Shown here: one piece after another, positions 8,604-23,693 of the stretch
Numbering within the stretch: position 1 is the stretch's first letter
Layout of the letters: the number at the start of each line of letters is the position of its first letter
Source of the DNA: a virus
Virus record (IMG/VR): IMGVR_UViG_3300027985_000194
Span: 1 to 23,782 of that record
Length of the DNA stretch: 23,782 nt
Strand: one strand, 5' to 3'
The notes under the pieces: model-generated
Told to the model about the DNA's origin: nothing
Seen by the model: the letters and a program-made list of their open reading frames with translations, nothing else
Databases searched by the model: none
Position numbers and translations under genes: made by a program

Positions 8604-8900
8604 ATGTCAGTTTTACAAACTTTGAACCCTGCCTACGGGAAAGGCATTACTGGATCGGTGACTGGGACTAGCGCAGCATCAGAGATCGGTTTTGGCCACA
8701 AAACTTTATGCTTAACAAATCTCGGCGCAGAAACTGTTTATGTGCGTGTTGGATTATCTGGTGTTGTTGCCACAACCTCCGACTATCCCGTTTTATCTGG
8801 AACTCAAGTTACGATCACGAAAGACCAAGATCACACGCATATTGCATACAAAACAGGCACCGCATCATCTCTTCATATCATTCCTGGCGAAGGGTTCTAA
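8604..8900 (+). CDS. Small beta-rich structural protein, 98 aa
   Basis: A short Gly/Thr/Val-rich protein with 'LCLTNLGAETVYVRVGLSG' (residues 34-52) and 'YPVLSGTQVTITKDQDHTH'. The pattern of a domain that places a small ordered beta sheet around 'NLG..TVYVR.G' is frequent in small phage virion proteins encoded next to tail genes. No enzyme motif or membrane segment is seen. AGGTAGG ten bases upstream serves as ribosome site and overlaps the end of the previous gene. The stop is one base before the next start region. The following gene's reading frame is also open through much of this gene, but that is coincidental. Confidence 0.7.
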   Translation: MSVLQTLNPAYGKGITGSVTGTSAASEIGFGHKTLCLTNLGAETVYVRVGLSGVVATTSDYPVLSGTQVTITKDQDHTHIAYKTGTASSLHIIPGEGF

Positions 8901-8901
8901 C

Positions 8902-10383
8902 ATGCACAGAGCTAGATCGACAAAAAGAACGCGAGATGGGACAACATTTGTACCATCAATGCTGTTCGCGCAGGGAGTGGGTGGATTCTGGCTCGACCCG
9001 TCCGATATGTCCACGATGTATCAGGATTCCGCTGGCACAATACCGGTGACGGCGGTTGAGCAGCCGGTAGGGCTGATGCTGGATAAGTCCAGAGGGTTGA
9101 TGCTTGGGCCGGAGTTGGTTAGTAATACCACTTTTGATTCATCTAACAACTGGGTTTTACAATCTGGGTGGGTCGTGTCGAATGGTATTTTAACAGCAAC
9201 GAATGTCCCCGCATACCAATCGGGAACTACAACTCCGTTATTGACCACACTTGTTTCGGGTAAATTGTATAAATGTACGTTTACAATAACATCATTTACC
9301 AGCGGTGGAATACGAGTTCAATTCTCTGGCGGTACCACAGTTAATTCAACCGCAATATCAGCGTCTGGGACTCACACAATTTATATCAAAGCTGAAGCTG
9401 CTCATATCAACGTTGGTGTCCAACCAGTTGTAAATGGAACAACATTGTCAATAGATAATTTTTCATTAAAAGAGCTCTACGGCAACCACGCCACACAATC
9501 GGTGACAGCATCACGGCCTGTGCTGAGTGCACGTAAAAATGTGTTACTCGCTACTGAAACATTAGCTACACAATCTGTTACGTCTATTGCCGCACAATAC
9601 ACGCTGTCGTTCACCGGCACAGGCAGCGTCACACTGTCCGGCACTGCTACAGGTACGCTAACCGGCACCGGAGTAAATGACCGCGTATCACTCACCGTAA
9701 CACCGACAGCTGGCACATTAACGCTTACAGTGTCAGGTAGCGTCACTAAAGCACAACTTGAGTTAGGCACTTCCGCAGGCCCGTATCAACGCGTCAACAC
9801 CGCAACGGACTACGACACCGATCCGCGGTATTTTCCGAAATATCTTCAGTTTAGCTCAGCAGTAGCAATCGACGACTTCCTAAATCTTCCGTACATGAGC
9901 CTATACAACGGAGGCGCTGCCAGCATTGTCTGTGCGAGAGATGCGGTATCACAGGCTACTGATACTTATGTCATCAGTGAGCGCTCCACCACGGATGCAG
10001 ACCCGAAATACTTCCCATCTCGTCAGCTCGCCAGCGCAGGGAATATGGATGCGTACATTAGTGATGATGCGGGCTCCGTGATATTGGATACTGTCGGCTC
10101 ACCCTTCAGTGGTGTGGCTAACGCGGTCATCCGGTCGATTGTGGATTCGGGCAATAACCTCAAGTTGTTCAAAAATGGCGTGCTTGCTGCAAATGATAAC
10201 TACACGCGGTCAGGTACGTTAACGCTGAATAACACCACCATTGGTGCCTCCGTCTCAACCACAACCAGTAACTACGCATCAATGAAATTGTACGGGCTGA
10301 TAGTAACTAAGTCAGCGTTAACGGACGCTCAACGCATTGCCTGTGAACGTCATTTGTCACGCAAAGCGGGGATAGCACTATGA
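8902..10383 (+). CDS. Multidomain virion protein with CBM-like and LamG-like beta-sandwiches
   Basis: A 493-residue protein that looks like a tail fibre or capsid-surface adhesin. Domains in order: a short N-terminal segment with 'FWLDPSDMSTMYQDSAGT' (residues 29-46), common at the start of phage surface proteins; a carbohydrate-binding-module-like sandwich at about 70-192 ('NTTFDSSNNWVLQSG' to 'IDNFSLKEL'); a Thr/Ser/Gly-rich beta domain at 195-300; and a concanavalin/LamG-like domain at about 310-493 ending 'SALTDAQRIACERHLSRKAG', the typical closing helix of such phage domains. The reading frame is open 54 codons further upstream, but ATG 8902, with GAAGGG seven bases before it and directly after the preceding stop, is the better start. 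Base composition is much more GC-rich than neighbours except in the CBM-like part, suggesting mosaic origin. Binding of host glycans is inferred. Confidence 0.75.
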   Translation: MHRARSTKRTRDGTTFVPSMLFAQGVGGFWLDPSDMSTMYQDSAGTIPVTAVEQPVGLMLDKSRGLMLGPELVSNTTFDSSNNWVLQSGWVVSNGILTATNVPAYQSGTTTPLLTTLVSGKLYKCTFTITSFTSGGIRVQFSGGTTVNSTAISASGTHTIYIKAEAAHINVGVQPVVNGTTLSIDNFSLKELYGNHATQSVTASRPVLSARKNVLLATETLATQSVTSIAAQYTLSFTGTGSVTLSGTATGTLTGTGVNDRVSLTVTPTAGTLTLTVSGSVTKAQLELGTSAGPYQRVNTATDYDTDPRYFPKYLQFSSAVAIDDFLNLPYMSLYNGGAASIVCARDAVSQATDTYVISERSTTDADPKYFPSRQLASAGNMDAYISDDAGSVILDTVGSPFSGVANAVIRSIVDSGNNLKLFKNGVLAANDNYTRSGTLTLNNTTIGASVSTTTSNYASMKLYGLIVTKSALTDAQRIACERHLSRKAGIAL

Positions 10384-10754
10384 GCAACTGGACACACACT
10401 CTAACCGTGATTGTGCCCGAGCCGCTGATGGATGTCGGTAATCAGCTAGCACTGGCAATGGGCACGTCAGAGGATGATATTAATACTTTCCGTAGCGCTG
10501 ACTGGACGGATGGGGTTAACAACTACGCCGTGGCACACACCGTGGCGGTCGAGCAAATTCTGGACTATTTTGCCCAGCTCCCCGCCGAATTACAGGAAGG
10601 GGTAGTGTTTCCGACAGTGGCAACTAACGAGACCGGCAACACCATGCTAACTGGTAGCGACATGGCTACAATTCAGGTCTTTGTCGATGCGGATCCGTTC
10701 ACGGTGTTTGGTCTGCTGAACCTGACGTGGAGGCCAGCTGATGTCCTTGCTTAA
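10380..10754 (+). CDS. Hypothetical protein, 124 aa, adjunct of the surface protein
   Basis: I do not recognise a named family. The protein is acidic, with 'VIVPEPLMDVGNQLALAMGT' near the N-terminus and 'VFVDADPFTVFGLLNLTWRP' (residues 103-122) near the C-terminus. It starts in an ATGA overlap with the stop of the large surface-protein gene, and its own end overlaps the next gene by 14 bases, so the three form one translational unit. All three share the raised GC content of this block and probably moved together. A chaperone or small structural partner of the upstream adhesin is a reasonable guess from coupling alone. Confidence 0.65.
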   Translation: MSNWTHTLTVIVPEPLMDVGNQLALAMGTSEDDINTFRSADWTDGVNNYAVAHTVAVEQILDYFAQLPAELQEGVVFPTVATNETGNTMLTGSDMATIQVFVDADPFTVFGLLNLTWRPADVLA

Positions 10755-11001
10755 AGCTATCGCTAACCGCCTGTTCGTCATCCTGCTGGCGCTCGATCAA
10801 TTGGTATGCGGCGTCATCTGGCTGCGGCCTGATCATACCATTAGCGGTGAAGTTGGTTACGCTGCGCTAAACGGTAAGCGTTGGGCTATTATTGCTGAGC
10901 GTGTCATTGATGGAATGCCGTGGTTTGGTTCAGGCCATTGCTTTAACTCGATCGAGTGGGACGAAATAAACAAACCCAAATTCTCGTTATGGGATGAGTG
11001 A
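10741..11001 (+). CDS. Small membrane-anchored phage protein, 86 aa
   Basis: One N-terminal hydrophobic segment (about residues 10-28, 'RLFVILLALDQLVCGVIWL') is followed by a polar part with 'DHTISGEVGYAALNGKRWA' and 'GHCFNSIEWDE'. I recognise the layout 'ALDQL-n-PD-T-S-x-Y-x-x-x-x-GKRW ... D-x-x-x-W-x-x-x-HC' from a widespread family of small proteins in phages and prophages of Proteobacteria, often in tail or lysis regions. To my knowledge it has no proven function, though it is sometimes given unreliable enzyme names. The start lies within the preceding gene and the stop within the start of the gp10-type gene, so it is tightly coupled. It belongs to the GC-rich block. Insertion in the host inner membrane is inferred. 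Confidence 0.72.
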   Translation: MSLLKAIANRLFVILLALDQLVCGVIWLRPDHTISGEVGYAALNGKRWAIIAERVIDGMPWFGSGHCFNSIEWDEINKPKFSLWDE

Positions 11002-18769: not shown

Positions 18770-19123
18770 ATGATCGAAGAATTAGTACAACGCGCATTCG
18801 CAGCAAGAAACGCGGCGCACTTGGCGCACTGGCGCACAAAATCATATGCTCAACATGTTGCCTTAGGTGATTTTTACGATGGAATTGTTGGCGCAATTGA
18901 CGATATTGTTGAAAATTATCAAGGTGTTTTTGATCTGATTTTTGTCAAAGATTTACCAGAAACGAAACAAAAAGACATTATCAAACAACTTGAAGATGAT
19001 TTAGTTTGGATCAATAAAAATCGGAAAGAAATTTGCAAAGGACTTCCTGCTCTCGACAATCTGCTTCAATCTCTCGAATCTTGCTACATGAAAACGATTT
19101 ACAAATTAAATAACTTATCATAG
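18770..19123 (+). CDS. Dps/ferritin-like small phage protein, 117 aa
   Basis: A small helical protein with 'AAHLAHWRTKSYAQHVALGD' and 'FYDGIVGAIDDIVENYQG' in its first half. The H-x-x-H-W spacing (H17, H20, W21), followed by H29, a Phe-Tyr-Asp (35-37) and a later Glu on the same helix, is strongly reminiscent of Dps and other ferritin-like four-helix proteins. I associate it with the DUF5856 family found in several unrelated tailed phages, for which I know no established function. At 117 residues it is shorter than true Dps (about 160), so it may form a half-bundle that dimerises. It lies between ejection and tailspike genes. It could be a virion component, or it could bind DNA or metal; none of this is shown by sequence alone. 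Confidence 0.7.
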   Translation: MIEELVQRAFAARNAAHLAHWRTKSYAQHVALGDFYDGIVGAIDDIVENYQGVFDLIFVKDLPETKQKDIIKQLEDDLVWINKNRKEICKGLPALDNLLQSLESCYMKTIYKLNNLS

Positions 19124-19130
19124 GTGGATC

Positions 19131-21158
19131 ATGGCAACTCCTTATTTGATACAACAGCCAGAAGTCATTTTTAATGACATATCTGGCGAGCCTCTTGAAG
19201 GCGGGTACATTTATATCGGTCAGGAAAACCTAAATCCACTGACTTATCCGGTTCAATGCTACGCCGATGAAGCTCTGACCATTCCGGTAGCGCAGCCAAT
19301 TAGAACAATTGGCGGGTACACGGTTATTAATGGCCGCGCATCAAATTTTTATGCCGGAGAAAAATTTTCGATTGCAATTTTAGACAAAAACCAAGTGCCT
19401 ATATACTCATCCTTGTCGTGGGTAGATTCGCCAAATCTAACCCTAAGAGGTGAATTAGCCGATAGCCTAGGGTCAAATATTATCGGATATGACAATGCCG
19501 AAGCATATGACACTGGAACCGTTGGTGCAGGAATGCTTTCGATAGAGTCAGACGTTACAGCATTAGAGAACTATACCCCGTCAGAATTCATGACTCTTGC
19601 CACTGTTCTAAAAAAAGCAAATGACGGCGGTGCGATAACGATCGCATGTTACGGAGATTCGCTAACATACGGACAAGATACATCTGGAACAGGAACCGGA
19701 GATCCGATAAATGGGGCATCTCAAACAAGAAGTCCAAATCCATATCCAGAGGCACTGCGGACAAGTCTGACCACAATTGGGTTTTCTGCGACCGTTTACA
19801 ACAGGGGGTATCCTGGCGACACGTCTTCTGATGGGCTTTCCAGATGGGCTGCGGCATCAAGCACGGATGTTTCTATTATAATGTATGGAACAAATGATGC
19901 GCTTAATCTTGGCGGAACTGGCCTTGTTAGCGTTGACGATTTCAGAATAAACATTTCAGCGATGATCGAAAGGGAGAGGGCAAAAGGATCAGTTGTTATT
20001 CTGATGTCACCACCTGATGTTGCAGAGAGAATAAAGAATGCAAAAATAGCTCCTTATCGTGCACAGATGAAATATCTTGCTGATGCCTATTCTATTCCAT
20101 TTATTAATGCAGCAGAACAAATTGAAACTATTACAGCAAAGTGGACGGATAATGTACATCTGACGTCATTTGCATACAACGAGATGGGTTGGCACATAGC
20201 CGCTTTGTTCTCAAACAGAGCCGGAGCAATTCAGCATGTATGCGCTGGACAAATTTATCATCCAACGGATCATATTGGCTATGGTGGGTCTACATCATTT
20301 AAGACAATATCCGGAGCAAAGGGTAATAATCTAGCGATATCGCTTGATCCATTGGATGTTTACGCGATCGGTGTTTATTGTGACACGGATGTTTTGGCGA
20401 TAATTCATAGCTTGAACTCGCAAGGAACTGCATCTGAGATAAAAGCATATTACGCAGGAGAAAGCTCAGCGACAAGTGGCGTTGAATCATCAGCATTGTC
20501 TCATACAAGTTCCACTGGTTTTAGGCAAAGCCTAACAGCACAGAAATTAAGCAAAGGATATAGGACTCTTTATATATTAAATATCGGTTCTGTTTCTGCT
20601 TATATAGAGGCAATTGAATTCAAGGGATTATCTCAGGGTGCGATGAACAGGGGATTTTTCCATAAAAGTGAAGCTCTAAGTGGATCATTCCAGCCAGCAA
20701 GATATTCCTCTTCTGTCAATGGGTGGGTAATGTCAGATGTTAGCAGGATGCTCACTTCTAATTGCCAGTTTGTTGCAAAACTAACGCTGGCAACAGTAAA
20801 TACAGGTGGCATTGCACTGATGGATGGAATGCAAACGGCGCCAGACAATTTCGCATTAAACGCAATTTTTGCCTTGAGATCTGCTGATTCTCTGATTATT
20901 AGAGAGTTGATAAACGGTTCAGCAACCGGAGACACAACAGCCGGAAGCATCTTCCCTGCCACTGGATCATGGACTGGTGAAATTGAAATGGAAATATCCG
21001 GAACGACATGTAACATCTATGTTGATGGAGCTTTAGCTTTAAGCAAGCCAAATATAACTATAAACAGGGGATATCCAGCGGTTTATGGCTCTACATCACA
21101 AAGATTGATTTGTCATGGTGCGTTAATTAAAGGATATACGAAAGCAATTTACGAATAA
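19131..21158 (+). CDS. Tailspike with P22-type head-binding domain and SGNH esterase
   Basis: The receptor-recognition protein. Residues 1 to about 105 form a P22-tailspike-type head-binding domain ('PEVIFNDISGEPLEGGYIYIG', with later 'PIRTIGGYTVINGRA' and 'FSIAILDKNQVPIYSS'), which docks to the tail machine. From about 168 to 362 an SGNH hydrolase domain follows, with all four blocks visible. Block I is GDS (catalytic S177), block II G226 in 'NRGYPGD', block III GTND (N255) and block V DNVH (D340, H343). Such domains act as esterases and in tailspikes of other phages remove acetyl groups from O-antigen or capsule. There is no beta-helix lyase or glycosidase pattern. Residues 380-675 are beta-rich, including a jelly-roll-like C-terminus. 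The ribosome site AGGTGG overlaps the previous stop. The gene ends at a strong bidirectional terminator. Confidence 0.88.
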   Translation: MATPYLIQQPEVIFNDISGEPLEGGYIYIGQENLNPLTYPVQCYADEALTIPVAQPIRTIGGYTVINGRASNFYAGEKFSIAILDKNQVPIYSSLSWVDSPNLTLRGELADSLGSNIIGYDNAEAYDTGTVGAGMLSIESDVTALENYTPSEFMTLATVLKKANDGGAITIACYGDSLTYGQDTSGTGTGDPINGASQTRSPNPYPEALRTSLTTIGFSATVYNRGYPGDTSSDGLSRWAAASSTDVSIIMYGTNDALNLGGTGLVSVDDFRINISAMIERERAKGSVVILMSPPDVAERIKNAKIAPYRAQMKYLADAYSIPFINAAEQIETITAKWTDNVHLTSFAYNEMGWHIAALFSNRAGAIQHVCAGQIYHPTDHIGYGGSTSFKTISGAKGNNLAISLDPLDVYAIGVYCDTDVLAIIHSLNSQGTASEIKAYYAGESSATSGVESSALSHTSSTGFRQSLTAQKLSKGYRTLYILNIGSVSAYIEAIEFKGLSQGAMNRGFFHKSEALSGSFQPARYSSSVNGWVMSDVSRMLTSNCQFVAKLTLATVNTGGIALMDGMQTAPDNFALNAIFALRSADSLIIRELINGSATGDTTAGSIFPATGSWTGEIEMEISGTTCNIYVDGALALSKPNITINRGYPAVYGSTSQRLICHGALIKGYTKAIYE

Positions 21159-21160
21159 CA

Positions 21161-21190
21161 AAAAGCCCTCTATCTGAGGGCTTCTTTAAT
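21161..21190. terminator. Bidirectional intrinsic terminator between tailspike and leftward genes
   Basis: AAGCCCTC (21163-21170) pairs perfectly with GAGGGCTT (21176-21183) around a five-base loop. On the plus strand it is followed by CTTTAATT and on the minus strand by a run of five T then GTTATT, so it works in both directions and better leftward. It stops the tailspike transcript and the leftward accessory operon. A second small inverted repeat, GACATCCTGATGTC, lies at 21192-21205. Confidence 0.87.
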
Positions 21191-21295
21191 TGACATCCTG
21201 ATGTCGTGATAATCTTGCTCAAAGTTCGTTGACTTGTCCAAACGATATATGAGCCACATAACTCGTAAATGTTCAACATTCTTTGATCTGCACAT
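21170..21295 (-). CDS. Very small leftward protein, 41 aa, overlapping the terminator
   Basis: Reading leftward from an ATG at 21295, this frame gives 41 residues beginning MCRSKNVEHLRVMW and ending 'MSIKEALR'. It has a textbook ribosome site: GGAGG lies five bases upstream, inside the coding sequence of the preceding leftward gene. The protein is balanced in charge with a helical C-terminal half and has no membrane segment. The stop codon TAG is in the loop and descending arm of the shared terminator, so the last four codons (Glu-Ala-Leu-Arg) also make its ascending arm. It overlaps the preceding gene by 23 bases. I do not recognise the protein. The strong ribosome site, natural composition and fit to the end of the operon support it as the sixth gene of the leftward unit. 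Confidence 0.72.
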   Translation of the reverse strand: MCRSKNVEHLRVMWLIYRLDKSTNFEQDYHDIRMSIKEALR

Positions 21296-21527
21296 ATTTA
21301 CCTCCAGGTAATTTGCTTGCACATTCGGCGCAAAAATATCTATTTTCTATTCTTATTCTTTTAATTTCGATAACTTCATTTGTTGCGTTTGTAGGTAAAT
21401 AATTGCTACCCACAAATTTTGGTGTTTTTACTTCTTTTTTAACGTAAAGCCAGTTTACACCCTTGGTAACAAGTTTATCGTTATACTTGCATTTTTCATT
21501 TGAGCAGAATCTTTCATACTCTTTCAT
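21273..21527 (-). CDS. Leftward small protein with four-cysteine zinc-binding pattern, 84 aa
   Basis: The protein has two cysteine pairs, C8-x4-C13 near the N-terminus and C66-x2-C69 near the C-terminus ('FCAECASK'). Fifty residues of mixed strand-forming, Lys-rich sequence lie between them. This arrangement suggests a zinc ribbon-like or knuckle-type structural metal site, although the first pair is wider than usual. No catalytic motif is seen and I cannot assign a family. The start overlaps the end of the upstream 71-residue gene by 14 bases, and the end overlaps the next tiny gene, so expression is coupled. The ribosome site is weak (GCGGA). Small zinc-binding phage proteins often act on host transcription or defence factors, but no such role is shown here. 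Confidence 0.68.
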   Translation of the reverse strand: MKEYERFCSNEKCKYNDKLVTKGVNWLYVKKEVKTPKFVGSNYLPTNATNEVIEIKRIRIENRYFCAECASKLPGGKYVQIKEC

Positions 21528-21729
21528 TGCATCCGCCTTGGTTCGCGTGATTTTGCAGTATCACCCTTGTTCCCTGCTCGTCCATCATGATAAAACAATT
21601 ACTTGTTCTCATGGTAATAAATGGATAAGTCAAACGAAGAGCATGATAAGCGGTGCTCATGTTTTCGTAACCTGTTACGAACGAATTGGATACTCTCATA
21701 TCCGGTGTTACAGTCTTGCATGTAATCAT
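21514..21729 (-). CDS. Leftward hypothetical protein, 71 aa
   Basis: Unrecognised. The protein starts 'MITCKTVTPDMRVSNSF' and includes 'TAYHALRLTYPFITMRTSN' and 'CFIMMDEQGTRVIL'. The alternation of hydrophobic and polar residues suggests a small alpha/beta fold without membrane anchors. The reading frame is open ten codons further upstream, but I chose the ATG at 21729 because AAGGAGA lies six bases before it, a very good ribosome site; the longer start has none. A 67-base gap separates it from the gene upstream, the only real gap in the leftward cluster. No good promoter is visible in this gap. The next gene starts within its last codons. Confidence 0.66.
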   Translation of the reverse strand: MITCKTVTPDMRVSNSFVTGYENMSTAYHALRLTYPFITMRTSNCFIMMDEQGTRVILQNHANQGGCNERV

Positions 21730-21796
21730 GATGTTTCTCCTTCTGTTTGATATAAGCATAGTCTATTATTAATATCTATCTTTGACATGCATTACA

Positions 21797-22075
21797 TTAT
21801 TCGACAATTTCAAAACCATTTGCAATCGCAACATCAGCAGCAGTTAACCACTTTCCTTTTACTTTTCCATCTAAACTACACCAACCGACATCATCGGCAA
21901 TTGCTATTGTTTCGCATGGTTCAAATGGTGGCGTGCGTTTTCCAACCATTAAGATCTCGCGTTTATATTGATCAAGACTGCGAAACATCACATATAAATG
22001 GTCATTTTTTCGTAAATTCATCATTTCAATCCGGTAATATTCAATAGTGTAAAATCCGCGAATCGTTGCGATCAA
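21797..22075 (-). CDS. Leftward hypothetical protein, 92 aa
   Basis: Not recognised. The mix is typical of a small soluble alpha/beta protein: 'RKNDHLYVMFRSLDQYKREIL' in the middle, then 'TIAIADDVGWCSLDGKVKGKW' and a closing helix 'LTAADVAIANGFEIVE'. The assigned start is a TTG whose last two bases form the TGA stop of the upstream gene (TTGA), with AGGAAG about 12 bases upstream. A double ATG at residues 18-19 is an alternative start, but its ribosome site is weak. The late motif of an aromatic-rich strand followed by 'GKVKGKWLTAADV' could be a peptide- or nucleic-acid-binding surface, but this is speculation. Coupling to the neighbours suggests one functional unit. Confidence 0.6.
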   Translation of the reverse strand: MIATIRGFYTIEYYRIEMMNLRKNDHLYVMFRSLDQYKREILMVGKRTPPFEPCETIAIADDVGWCSLDGKVKGKWLTAADVAIANGFEIVE

Positions 22076-22356
22076 ATGTCACAGTTTCTTCCTCTCAGGC
22101 ATCTAATGCCAAGGCAAGCGCACATTGTTGGCGACTGACGGATAATTTTATTTCTTGCCAGTTTTTTTATCGCAAGCTCTCTGTTAACATCTGTCAAGCC
22201 AACTAGCGGCGGTACGATTATATCGAGCACTGTATCAATAGACATTCCATGCTCAACCATTTCGACGAAATCACGTGCCGAATCATTAGGAATAAACCAT
22301 GACTTTTTAATTCGTAGCGAATTATATCTCTCCTGGATTTCACTAATAACAATCAT
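22072..22356 (-). CDS. Leftward hypothetical protein with Cys-rich C-terminus, 94 aa
   Basis: Not recognised. The N-terminal two thirds appear helical: 'VISEIQERYNSLRIKKSW', 'SARDFVEMVEHGMSIDTVLD' and 'NRELAIKKLARNKIIRQ', reminiscent of small DNA-binding or adaptor proteins, though no clear helix-turn-helix can be assigned. The last 17 residues carry four cysteines (C79, C81, C86, C92) with several Arg, which might bind metal. AAGGAG lies ten bases before the ATG and inside the upstream gene, whose end overlaps this one by 14 bases. It shares the TTGA stop/start overlap with the next gene. No function can be assigned. Confidence 0.66.
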   Translation of the reverse strand: MIVISEIQERYNSLRIKKSWFIPNDSARDFVEMVEHGMSIDTVLDIIVPPLVGLTDVNRELAIKKLARNKIIRQSPTMCACLGIRCLRGRNCDI

Positions 22357-22639
22357 CGAAATAATGCTCCTTCATCCCTTCTTCCGCAAAATCACGCAGA
22401 AGCGTCCATAAGTGTTCATTCCCGCTTTCAAGCAGGTCATACGTGCGCTGTCTCCAGCGATTTCGGCGTACCCAGTAACCAACGCGCGATGCGTTTTTAT
22501 CTTCGCGCATTTCGTCATATGCGCACCACAATGCCTCTGTCAGCTTTCCGCTTATAAGCAACCAATCTAAAAAATCAGCTATATTATTCACAAATATATT
22601 TTGTGCGCATTTCTCAATCTCTGTTTTCGTGAAAATCAT
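22343..22639 (-). CDS. First gene of the leftward cluster, hypothetical, 98 aa
   Basis: Not recognised. The protein is largely helical, rich in Trp, Arg and acidic residues ('FLDWLLISGKLTEALWCAYD', 'YWVRRNRWRQRTYDLL', 'HLWTLLRDFAEEGMKEHYF'), with no membrane segment or enzyme motif. A very good ribosome site AAGGAG lies eight to nine bases before the ATG. As the promoter-proximal gene of the cluster it should be the most strongly expressed. Small, acidic, helical first genes in phage accessory operons often bind host proteins, but this is a general observation rather than evidence for this one. It is read away from the lysis genes and starts about 110 bases from the holin. Confidence 0.7.
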   Translation of the reverse strand: MIFTKTEIEKCAQNIFVNNIADFLDWLLISGKLTEALWCAYDEMREDKNASRVGYWVRRNRWRQRTYDLLESGNEHLWTLLRDFAEEGMKEHYFDDCY

Positions 22640-22660
22640 TCTTCATTCTCCTTGTTTGTT

Positions 22661-22690
22661 TTGATAACAATATCACTACACAAAAATAAT
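22661..22690 (+). promoter_or_regulatory. Candidate rightward promoter for the lysis genes
   Basis: TTGATA (22661-22666) and AATAAT (22685-22690), each five of six to the sigma70 consensus, separated by 18 bases. Predicted start near 22697, about 80 bases before the holin start. It would let the lysis pair be transcribed although the region upstream is read leftward and closed by the terminator at 21161-21190. Confidence 0.5.
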
Positions 22691-22692
22691 TC

Positions 22693-22708
22693 TGTGATTT
22701 AGATCAAT
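22693..22708. promoter_or_regulatory. CRP/FNR-like palindrome between divergent promoters
   Basis: TGTGATTTAGATCAAT matches the CRP half-sites (TGTGA-n6-TCACA) at eight of ten positions. Its core GTGAT-TTAG-ATCAA matches the FNR pattern (TTGAT-n4-ATCAA) at nine of ten. It overlaps the predicted start points of both the leftward and rightward promoters, so a bound host regulator would more likely repress than activate. Motif evidence only. Confidence 0.35.
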
Positions 22709-22736: not shown

Positions 22737-22776
22737 AGAGCGCATAATTAACATGACTAATCAATTAGGGGGATTT

Positions 22777-23244
22777 ATGTTTTCAGCACTATTTTCATTT
22801 CTGGGTGGCTCAGCGTTTCGCATGATTTGGGGCGAGATTTCATCATTCGTTGAAAAGCGGCAAGAGCACGCACAAGAAATCGAAAGAATGAAACTGCAAG
22901 GCGAACTAGACAACTATGAGCATGCTAGAAATATGGAGGCGCTGCGGGTTCAATCCGAGCTTGGCATCAAAGAGGTGCAGATCAAGTCTGTCGCCGATTT
23001 GGCAAACATTGACGCCGAAGGATTCTATCGAGCGTTTGAGGCAGCAGAAAAGCCATCTGGAATAGCCTGGGTTGACGCGTGGGCTAAAGTGATACGACCA
23101 TTAACAGCGACACTCTGCATTGCAATGCTTGGCCTTGCATTCTATCAGGGCGGGTTTGTTGTTACTGCCTTCTTCATGGACTTGATCAGCTCAGTGCTAG
23201 GTTTCTTTTTTGCTGATCGGTCATTAGCAAAACGGGGGAAATAA
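22777..23244 (+). CDS. Holin, 3TM (GTA-type) family
   Basis: This protein permeabilises the inner membrane to release the endolysin. The N-terminal 'FSALFSFLGGSAFRMIWGE', the charged coiled-coil part with 'KRQEHAQEIERMKLQGEL', 'GIKEVQIKSVADLANIDA', and the C-terminal 'IRPLTATLCIAMLGLAFY' ending 'VLGFFFADRSLAKRGK' are the hallmarks of the 3TM holin family often placed beside phage lysozymes. I chose ATG 22777 (155 residues) because AGGGGGA lies just before it and it gives the usual family N-terminus. An in-frame ATG at 22753, eight codons upstream, would give 163 residues and has only a distant AAAGAG. Dual starts are known in holins, so both may be used. The stop overlaps the endolysin start (TAATG). 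Confidence 0.85.
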   Translation: MFSALFSFLGGSAFRMIWGEISSFVEKRQEHAQEIERMKLQGELDNYEHARNMEALRVQSELGIKEVQIKSVADLANIDAEGFYRAFEAAEKPSGIAWVDAWAKVIRPLTATLCIAMLGLAFYQGGFVVTAFFMDLISSVLGFFFADRSLAKRGK

Positions 23245-23693
23245 TGGACATGAGCAGCGCGGTGATTGTTGCTCGGAATCTATGCCTAAAATATGAAGGC
23301 ATATATCTGAGTCCGTATTTGTGCCCCGCGGGAGTAGCTACGATCGGAGTTGGAGCTACTTACTACGAAAACGGCGTTAAAGTTCAATTAACTGACAGCT
23401 CAATCACGAAAGATCGCGCGCTGGAGTTGTTGGACTGGATGCTTGAAAAGATTTATTTTCCCGGTGTCATGAACCTATGCGCATCAATCGACAAACCAGA
23501 GCGCCTTGGATCGATAACTGACTTTGCTTTCAATCTCGGTATTAATGCACTTAAAAATTCAACACTCAGACGAAAAATTCTTGCTGGTGATTGGGAAGCG
23601 GCAAAGAAAGAGATAATGAAGTGGAATAAATCCGGAGGTAAAGTTCTTGGCGGATTGACAAAAAGACGCAAATCAGAAGCTGAATTTTTGTGA
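23244..23693 (+). CDS. Endolysin, GH24 phage lysozyme with E-C-T catalytic triad
   Basis: This muramidase degrades peptidoglycan at the end of infection. The GH24 family core is present: 'LKYEG' with catalytic E18, 'YLCPAGVATIGVGATY' and the late 'GGLTKRRKSEAEF' that matches the family's G-L-x-x-R-R-x-x-E signature. Aligned to T4 lysozyme (E11, D20, T26), the spacing gives E18, C27 and T33, so Cys replaces the usual Asp; related phage lysozymes with 'CPAG' exist and a T4 D20C variant retains activity. The N-terminus is not hydrophobic, so it is not a signal-arrest-release type and needs the holin. Length 149 is usual. GGGGGAAAT before the ATG serves as ribosome site and overlaps the holin end. 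A second in-frame ATG is at residue 3. Confidence 0.9.
   Translation: MDMSSAVIVARNLCLKYEGIYLSPYLCPAGVATIGVGATYYENGVKVQLTDSSITKDRALELLDWMLEKIYFPGVMNLCASIDKPERLGSITDFAFNLGINALKNSTLRRKILAGDWEAAKKEIMKWNKSGGKVLGGLTKRRKSEAEFL

Follow-up and report, generated by a model that had tools for sequence, protein, structure and literature searches.

Comparison of two phages supports the view that a cluster of six small leftward open reading frames (ORFs) in a P22-type phage is an exchangeable accessory cassette of unrecognized non-virion genes. We propose, with a probability of about 0.5, that this cassette is an accessory operon with a class II promoter, switched on by a host regulator that senses oxygen or cAMP. 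The window analyzed, 23,782 bases long, is an entire IMG/VR virus contig, and a second cassette is carried by the 41.9-kb siphovirus-type phage IMGVR_UViG_3300037458_000317 (hereafter G001); only these two cassettes are known. New here is a near-identical FNR/CRP-like palindrome that stands at the start of both. The ORFs, the presence of the g1–g4 set in a second phage type, the palindromic box, the spacing of −10 hexamers from it, and the terminators are direct observations.

The window phage is of the P22 type, with podovirus-type virion genes. Its rightward genes lead from the terminase (nearest relative in Salmonella phage LSPA1, 64%) through a P22-like portal (nearest relatives in Manatee Spring phages, 55–60%) and the tailspike to a 163-aa protein and a phage lysozyme. 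A DNA similarity search found no match among near or distant phages or E. coli genomes. The six-ORF cluster sits on the minus strand between the tailspike and the lysis genes and is the sole leftward unit within the window; the remaining minus-strand ORFs of at least 100 aa are all antisense inside large rightward genes, in agreement with the first-pass annotation, in which all other genes ran rightward. In the tailspike (19131–21158), a P22-like head-binding N-terminus is joined to a GDSL-type esterase domain, and the C-terminal part matches phrog_21878. Between the virion genes and the tailspike, positions 18770–19123 encode a 117-aa DUF5856/phrog_858 protein, a family labeled as starvation-inducible transcriptional regulator.

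The cluster has the following components:

22343–22639, minus strand: g1, 98 aa
22072–22356, minus strand: g2, 94 aa
21797–22075, minus strand: g3, 92 aa from a TTG start, or about 75 aa from Met18 (ATG at 22024)
21514–21729, minus strand: g4, 71 aa
21273–21527, minus strand: g5, 84 aa, a four-cysteine protein
21170–21295, minus strand: g6, 41 aa, with a good ribosome site, ending at the terminator
21160–21186, minus strand: intrinsic terminator, a stem-loop with a T run that closes g6 (−16.7 kcal/mol, z −4.75)

Every length, overlap, and gap given for these ORFs by the first-pass annotation was reproduced from the coordinates, with overlaps of 14, 4, 14, and 23 bases and a single gap of 67 bases. 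Shine-Dalgarno-like sequences upstream of the ORF starts match the ribosome sites it had reported, and its single terminator corresponds to the strong stem-loop at the g6 stop. Read on the plus strand, 21160–21186 scores as a terminator as well, one for the tailspike side. The 92-aa TTG start of g3 is uncertain because homology to the G001 protein begins at Met18. For g5 and g6, the evidence consists of the ORFs, the ribosome sites, and the terminator.

The second cassette was found, as fragment L002, by following the 163-aa gene through IMG/VR. G001 has homologs of g1–g4 (37–49% identity), which agree with the window in order, strand, and position. The g1 homolog (L002 5366–5052) is 37% identical over 75 aa (E 1e-18), that of g2 43% over 91 columns (E 2e-17), that of g3 49% over 43 aa (E 5e-8), and that of g4 37% over 59 aa (E 2e-11). 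The G001 g2 is longer (152–158 aa, with an extra C-terminal part), and a frameshifted remainder of this part was sought in the window and not found. The order in the G001 cassette is g1, the longer g2, a 110-aa protein of phrog_343 (a family with no assigned function), g3, an 84-aa protein, g4, and an 82-aa protein. Since four of the six ORFs are conserved as proteins and in order in another phage, the cluster exceeds chance, and g1–g4 represent four new protein families with an order kept across two phage types. The cassette is exchangeable, because other genes have been swapped in and out around the shared g1–g4. The first-pass annotation had named matches to virion or lysis proteins and decay of the frames in relatives as arguments against its proposal; no virion or lysis family was matched, and g1–g4 are intact in the relative.

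Terminators were found at the ends of both cassettes. With the promoter box and the shared g1–g4 set, they fit the self-contained reverse unit that had been described from the window alone. The last G001 cassette gene is overlapped at its end by the frame of a possible tiny protein with a single membrane span (L002 3256–3399, minus strand), which runs as far as the terminator. A tblastn search with the joined G001 cassette proteins found no match in phages. The G001 cassette is on the same strand as recombination and helicase genes. G001 also carries a lambda-J-like tail tip and an S-type holin, so the cassette and the lysis pair have moved between phage types. The genome, which IMG/VR lists as linear, looks essentially complete because nearly the same 49-aa ORF is present at both contig ends. 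In addition, the C-terminal part of a 547-aa window protein (8740–10383) is 47% identical to a protein of the G001 structural region (28714–29511), another exchange between the two phage types.

The genes to the right of the cassette have a wider distribution:

22753–23693, plus strand: lysis pair, consisting of the 163-aa protein (22753–23244; phrog_6637, a family with no assigned function, in a holin-like position) and a phage lysozyme (23244–23693)

This pair lies outside the leftward operon but travels beside the cassette, with G001 counterparts that are 84% (163-aa protein) and 74% (lysozyme) identical. A so far unnamed holin or spanin-like protein is the probable identity of the 163-aa product. 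The pair is widespread, with 107 viral loci confirmed, and is also present in five bacterial genomes (Polaromonas, Rhodoferax, Duganella, Comamonadaceae, and Gallionellaceae). The survey of related loci that had been suggested for this cluster thus found g1–g4 kept in order, with gene replacements, in G001 and the cassette families absent from the other approximately 85 loci carrying the same lysis pair. The cassette is rare or fast-evolving.

For the six cluster proteins, no family match was found in Pfam, PHROGs, or NCBIfam, in keeping with the earlier failure to recognize any of them, or in PADLOC, which covers defense proteins and does not bear on inhibitors. PDB sequence searches gave chance-level matches only. 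A tblastn search with the six joined proteins found no match in phages or plasmids at E values up to 1, and g5 and g6 have no homolog anywhere searched. Viral scans with g1 alone and g5 alone found no relative, and those with alignments of g1, g2, and g3 recovered only G001. Among bacteria, g2 had no match in the bacterial genome collection, and g1 was found neither in 369 genomes from the taxonomic class to which a Polaromonas locus belongs nor in the five bacteria with the lysis gene; these pattern-based scans were strict, so that absence from them is weak evidence. One g2 match among the same 369 genomes has two internal stops and was judged to be chance.

The g1 model is all-helical (pLDDT 83.7), and a fold search with it found no fold neighbor. 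A DUF3603 match for g1 (E 0.004, below the cut-off) was set aside, as the G001 homolog has no DUF3603 match. For g4, a beta-beta-alpha-beta-beta-beta fold is predicted (pLDDT 82.9), and the fold search gave only weak roadblock/longin-like PDB matches and nameless small phage proteins. Two members had been suggested to hold zinc sites. This holds up for g5, in which C8, C13, C66, and C69 form the only convincing four-cysteine set in the cluster and could possibly bind zinc, and not for g2, in which the cluster of C79, C81, C86, and C92 is lost in the G001 homolog, where only C79 clearly aligns.

The start of the cassette is marked by this element:

22693–22707, minus strand: FNR/CRP-like box TTGATCTAAATCACA upstream of g1, the sole exact TTGATNNNNATCACA match in the window

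The box was discovered by comparing the two phages, with no prior search for FNR sites. In a blastn alignment of the two cassettes, 17 bases matched immediately before g1, at a nearly equal distance from the start codon, in upstream regions that are otherwise hardly alike. The near-identical palindrome TTGATnTArATCACA opens both cassettes (AATTGATCTAAATCACAG in the window and TATTGATTTAGATCACAG in G001). The palindrome (22694–22707 in the window) agrees in 9 of 10 positions, with the same spacer, with the FNR box TTGATnnnnATCAA. A scan for the CRP box TGTGAnnnnnnTCACA with zero or one mismatch gave no match. The box is a hybrid of one FNR-like and one CRP-like half-site, perfect for neither. 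Under the exact pattern TTGATNNNNATCACA, which was defined after two of the four sites had already been seen, there is one copy in the window and three in G001, and shuffled G001 sequences have a mean of 0.065 copies, with none of 200 shuffles reaching three. The exact pattern is absent from 946 kb of related loci, which differ in base composition. The two extra copies in G001 are upstream of the 49-aa gene (196–47) and inside the cassette before the 84-aa gene, and the box may define a small regulon in that phage. At the former copy (G001 47–268), the 49-aa gene heads an operon that comprises small genes, a PhoH-like ATPase, and a terminase.

Hexamers with at least four matches to the −10 consensus, at offsets measured from the box dyad, were found as follows:

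22667–22672, minus strand, window: candidate −10 TATTGT toward g1, with TG two bases upstream (extended −10, TGaTATTGT), at offset 29 from the dyad, which places the dyad at −40.5
G001, toward g1: GATAAT
G001, toward the divergent HTH gene: TATTAT
G001, before the 49-aa gene: TATAGT
G001, before the 84-aa gene: extended TGtTATTAT

In five of the six gene-facing directions, such a hexamer is thus present at offset 29 or 30, with the dyad at −40.5 or −41.5 from a start that is itself a prediction; the background rate is 4–11% per direction. The exception is the direction toward the 163-aa gene in the window, which has no −10 hexamer at the class II offset. The window hexamer matches in four of six positions and is weak alone; extended −10 elements occur in two of the five promoters. 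The first-pass annotation's one candidate promoter gains substance from this conserved box and −10 hexamer upstream of g1. Transcription is predicted to start near 22660, so that the leader would span about 20 bases and include an AAGGAG ribosome site. Of 23 E. coli promoters that are activated by FNR and have known starts, 19 have the site at −41.5 ± 4; narG, dmsA, and nirB have it at −41.5, and focA-pflB and yfiD at −40.5 (PMC3688515). A comparable box was shown to be functional in a chlorite dismutase promoter (PMC7349173).

A host CRP/FNR-superfamily regulator would be the simplest reading of the box. No CRP/FNR gene was found in the window or the G001 record, and no cNMP-binding domain (PF00027) in G001 or in the window, the latter being a fragment. 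The palindrome may instead be the operator of a phage-encoded activator or repressor acting on the same cassette, with no host CRP/FNR protein involved. A candidate is the 139-aa two-HTH protein of G001 (10384–10803; L002 5497–5916), which is divergent from the cassette, with the box centered between both promoters. The three boxes in G001, as expected of a phage regulon, and the identical hybrid half-sites in all four boxes point the same way. However, no such HTH gene adjoins the window cassette, the tandem-HTH protein matches a CRP-type HTH (PF13545, HTH_Crp_2) only below threshold, and the 9/10 match to a host motif at a known promoter spacing would be a coincidence for an unrelated operator. 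We consider this explanation rather unlikely, though a serious competitor.

It is less probable still that the cluster is an ordinary accessory operon with a constitutive sigma-70 promoter, its palindrome being an unimportant inherited remnant or chance. A consensus scan does find sigma-70-like sites in the region (e.g., 22736–22707), at chance frequency, and two cassettes of shared ancestry could share upstream sequence. Yet these upstream regions are otherwise hardly similar, and two more boxes, with the same −10 spacing, precede other genes of G001. As for the products, the first-pass annotation had suggested superinfection exclusion or an immI-like immunity region, of which the reverse orientation near a P22-type tailspike is reminiscent. 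Against exclusion, membrane segments are absent from all six proteins (maximum 19-residue hydropathy 1.38), and neither immunity nor exclusion families were matched in Pfam, PHROGs, or NCBIfam, leaving this suggestion very improbable.

Under activation by the host regulator, the cassette would be a single transcription unit, with one promoter and one terminator, that opposes the late genes and yields six small, soluble proteins. We infer that a host CRP/FNR-superfamily protein, which would sense oxygen as FNR does or cAMP as CRP does, binds TTGATCTAAATCACA at 22707–22693, contacts RNA polymerase, and activates transcription from the predicted start. Host polymerase would then transcribe the cassette early or outside the late program. 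Because the promoter would be activated by a host regulator, expression would be independent of the late program and set by host physiology (scarce oxygen or a poor carbon supply). The products might tune the host cell, possibly by takeover of host factors or by blocking defense. More tentatively, and with somewhat less than an even chance, P22-type and siphovirus-type phages would share a cassette of new families wired to a host sensor, with the switch repeated at two further promoters in G001 as a small host-state-responsive regulon lacking a phage-encoded sensor.

What specialists would find surprising is a host-sensor-like promoter common to two phage types. Should the box be a genuine CRP/FNR site, the metabolic state of the host would be read directly by the phage and used to set an accessory program, which could explain conditional phage behavior (e.g., in anoxic gut or sediment) with no phage-encoded sensor. 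Undescribed host-directed functions might well be found among the four new families, whose order is shared by both phage types.

Among known systems, the P22 immI region (mnt, arc, and ant) resembles the cluster in its proximity to a P22-type tailspike gene, whereas the cluster has no Arc, Mnt, or antirepressor match and is placed after the tailspike and before the lysis genes. Titles and abstracts of the open-access literature gave no direct precedent for phage promoters under CRP/FNR. The nearest idea is CRP acting on the filamentous phage CTXphi. Compared with class II FNR/CRP promoters of enterobacteria, the agreement with TTGATnnnnATCAA (9/10), the spacer, and the dyad positions (−41.5/−40.5 from the inferred start) are alike, whereas the boxes here are phage-borne and have hybrid FNR-like/CRP-like half-sites, and their regulator and response are putative. 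Finally, the cluster shares with "moron"-type phage accessory cassettes a self-contained promoter-to-terminator organization, an orientation opposite to the late genes, and the exchange of members between phages. It differs from them in that no lysogenic context was seen, in its four new families ordered across two phage types, and in its host-sensor-type promoter.
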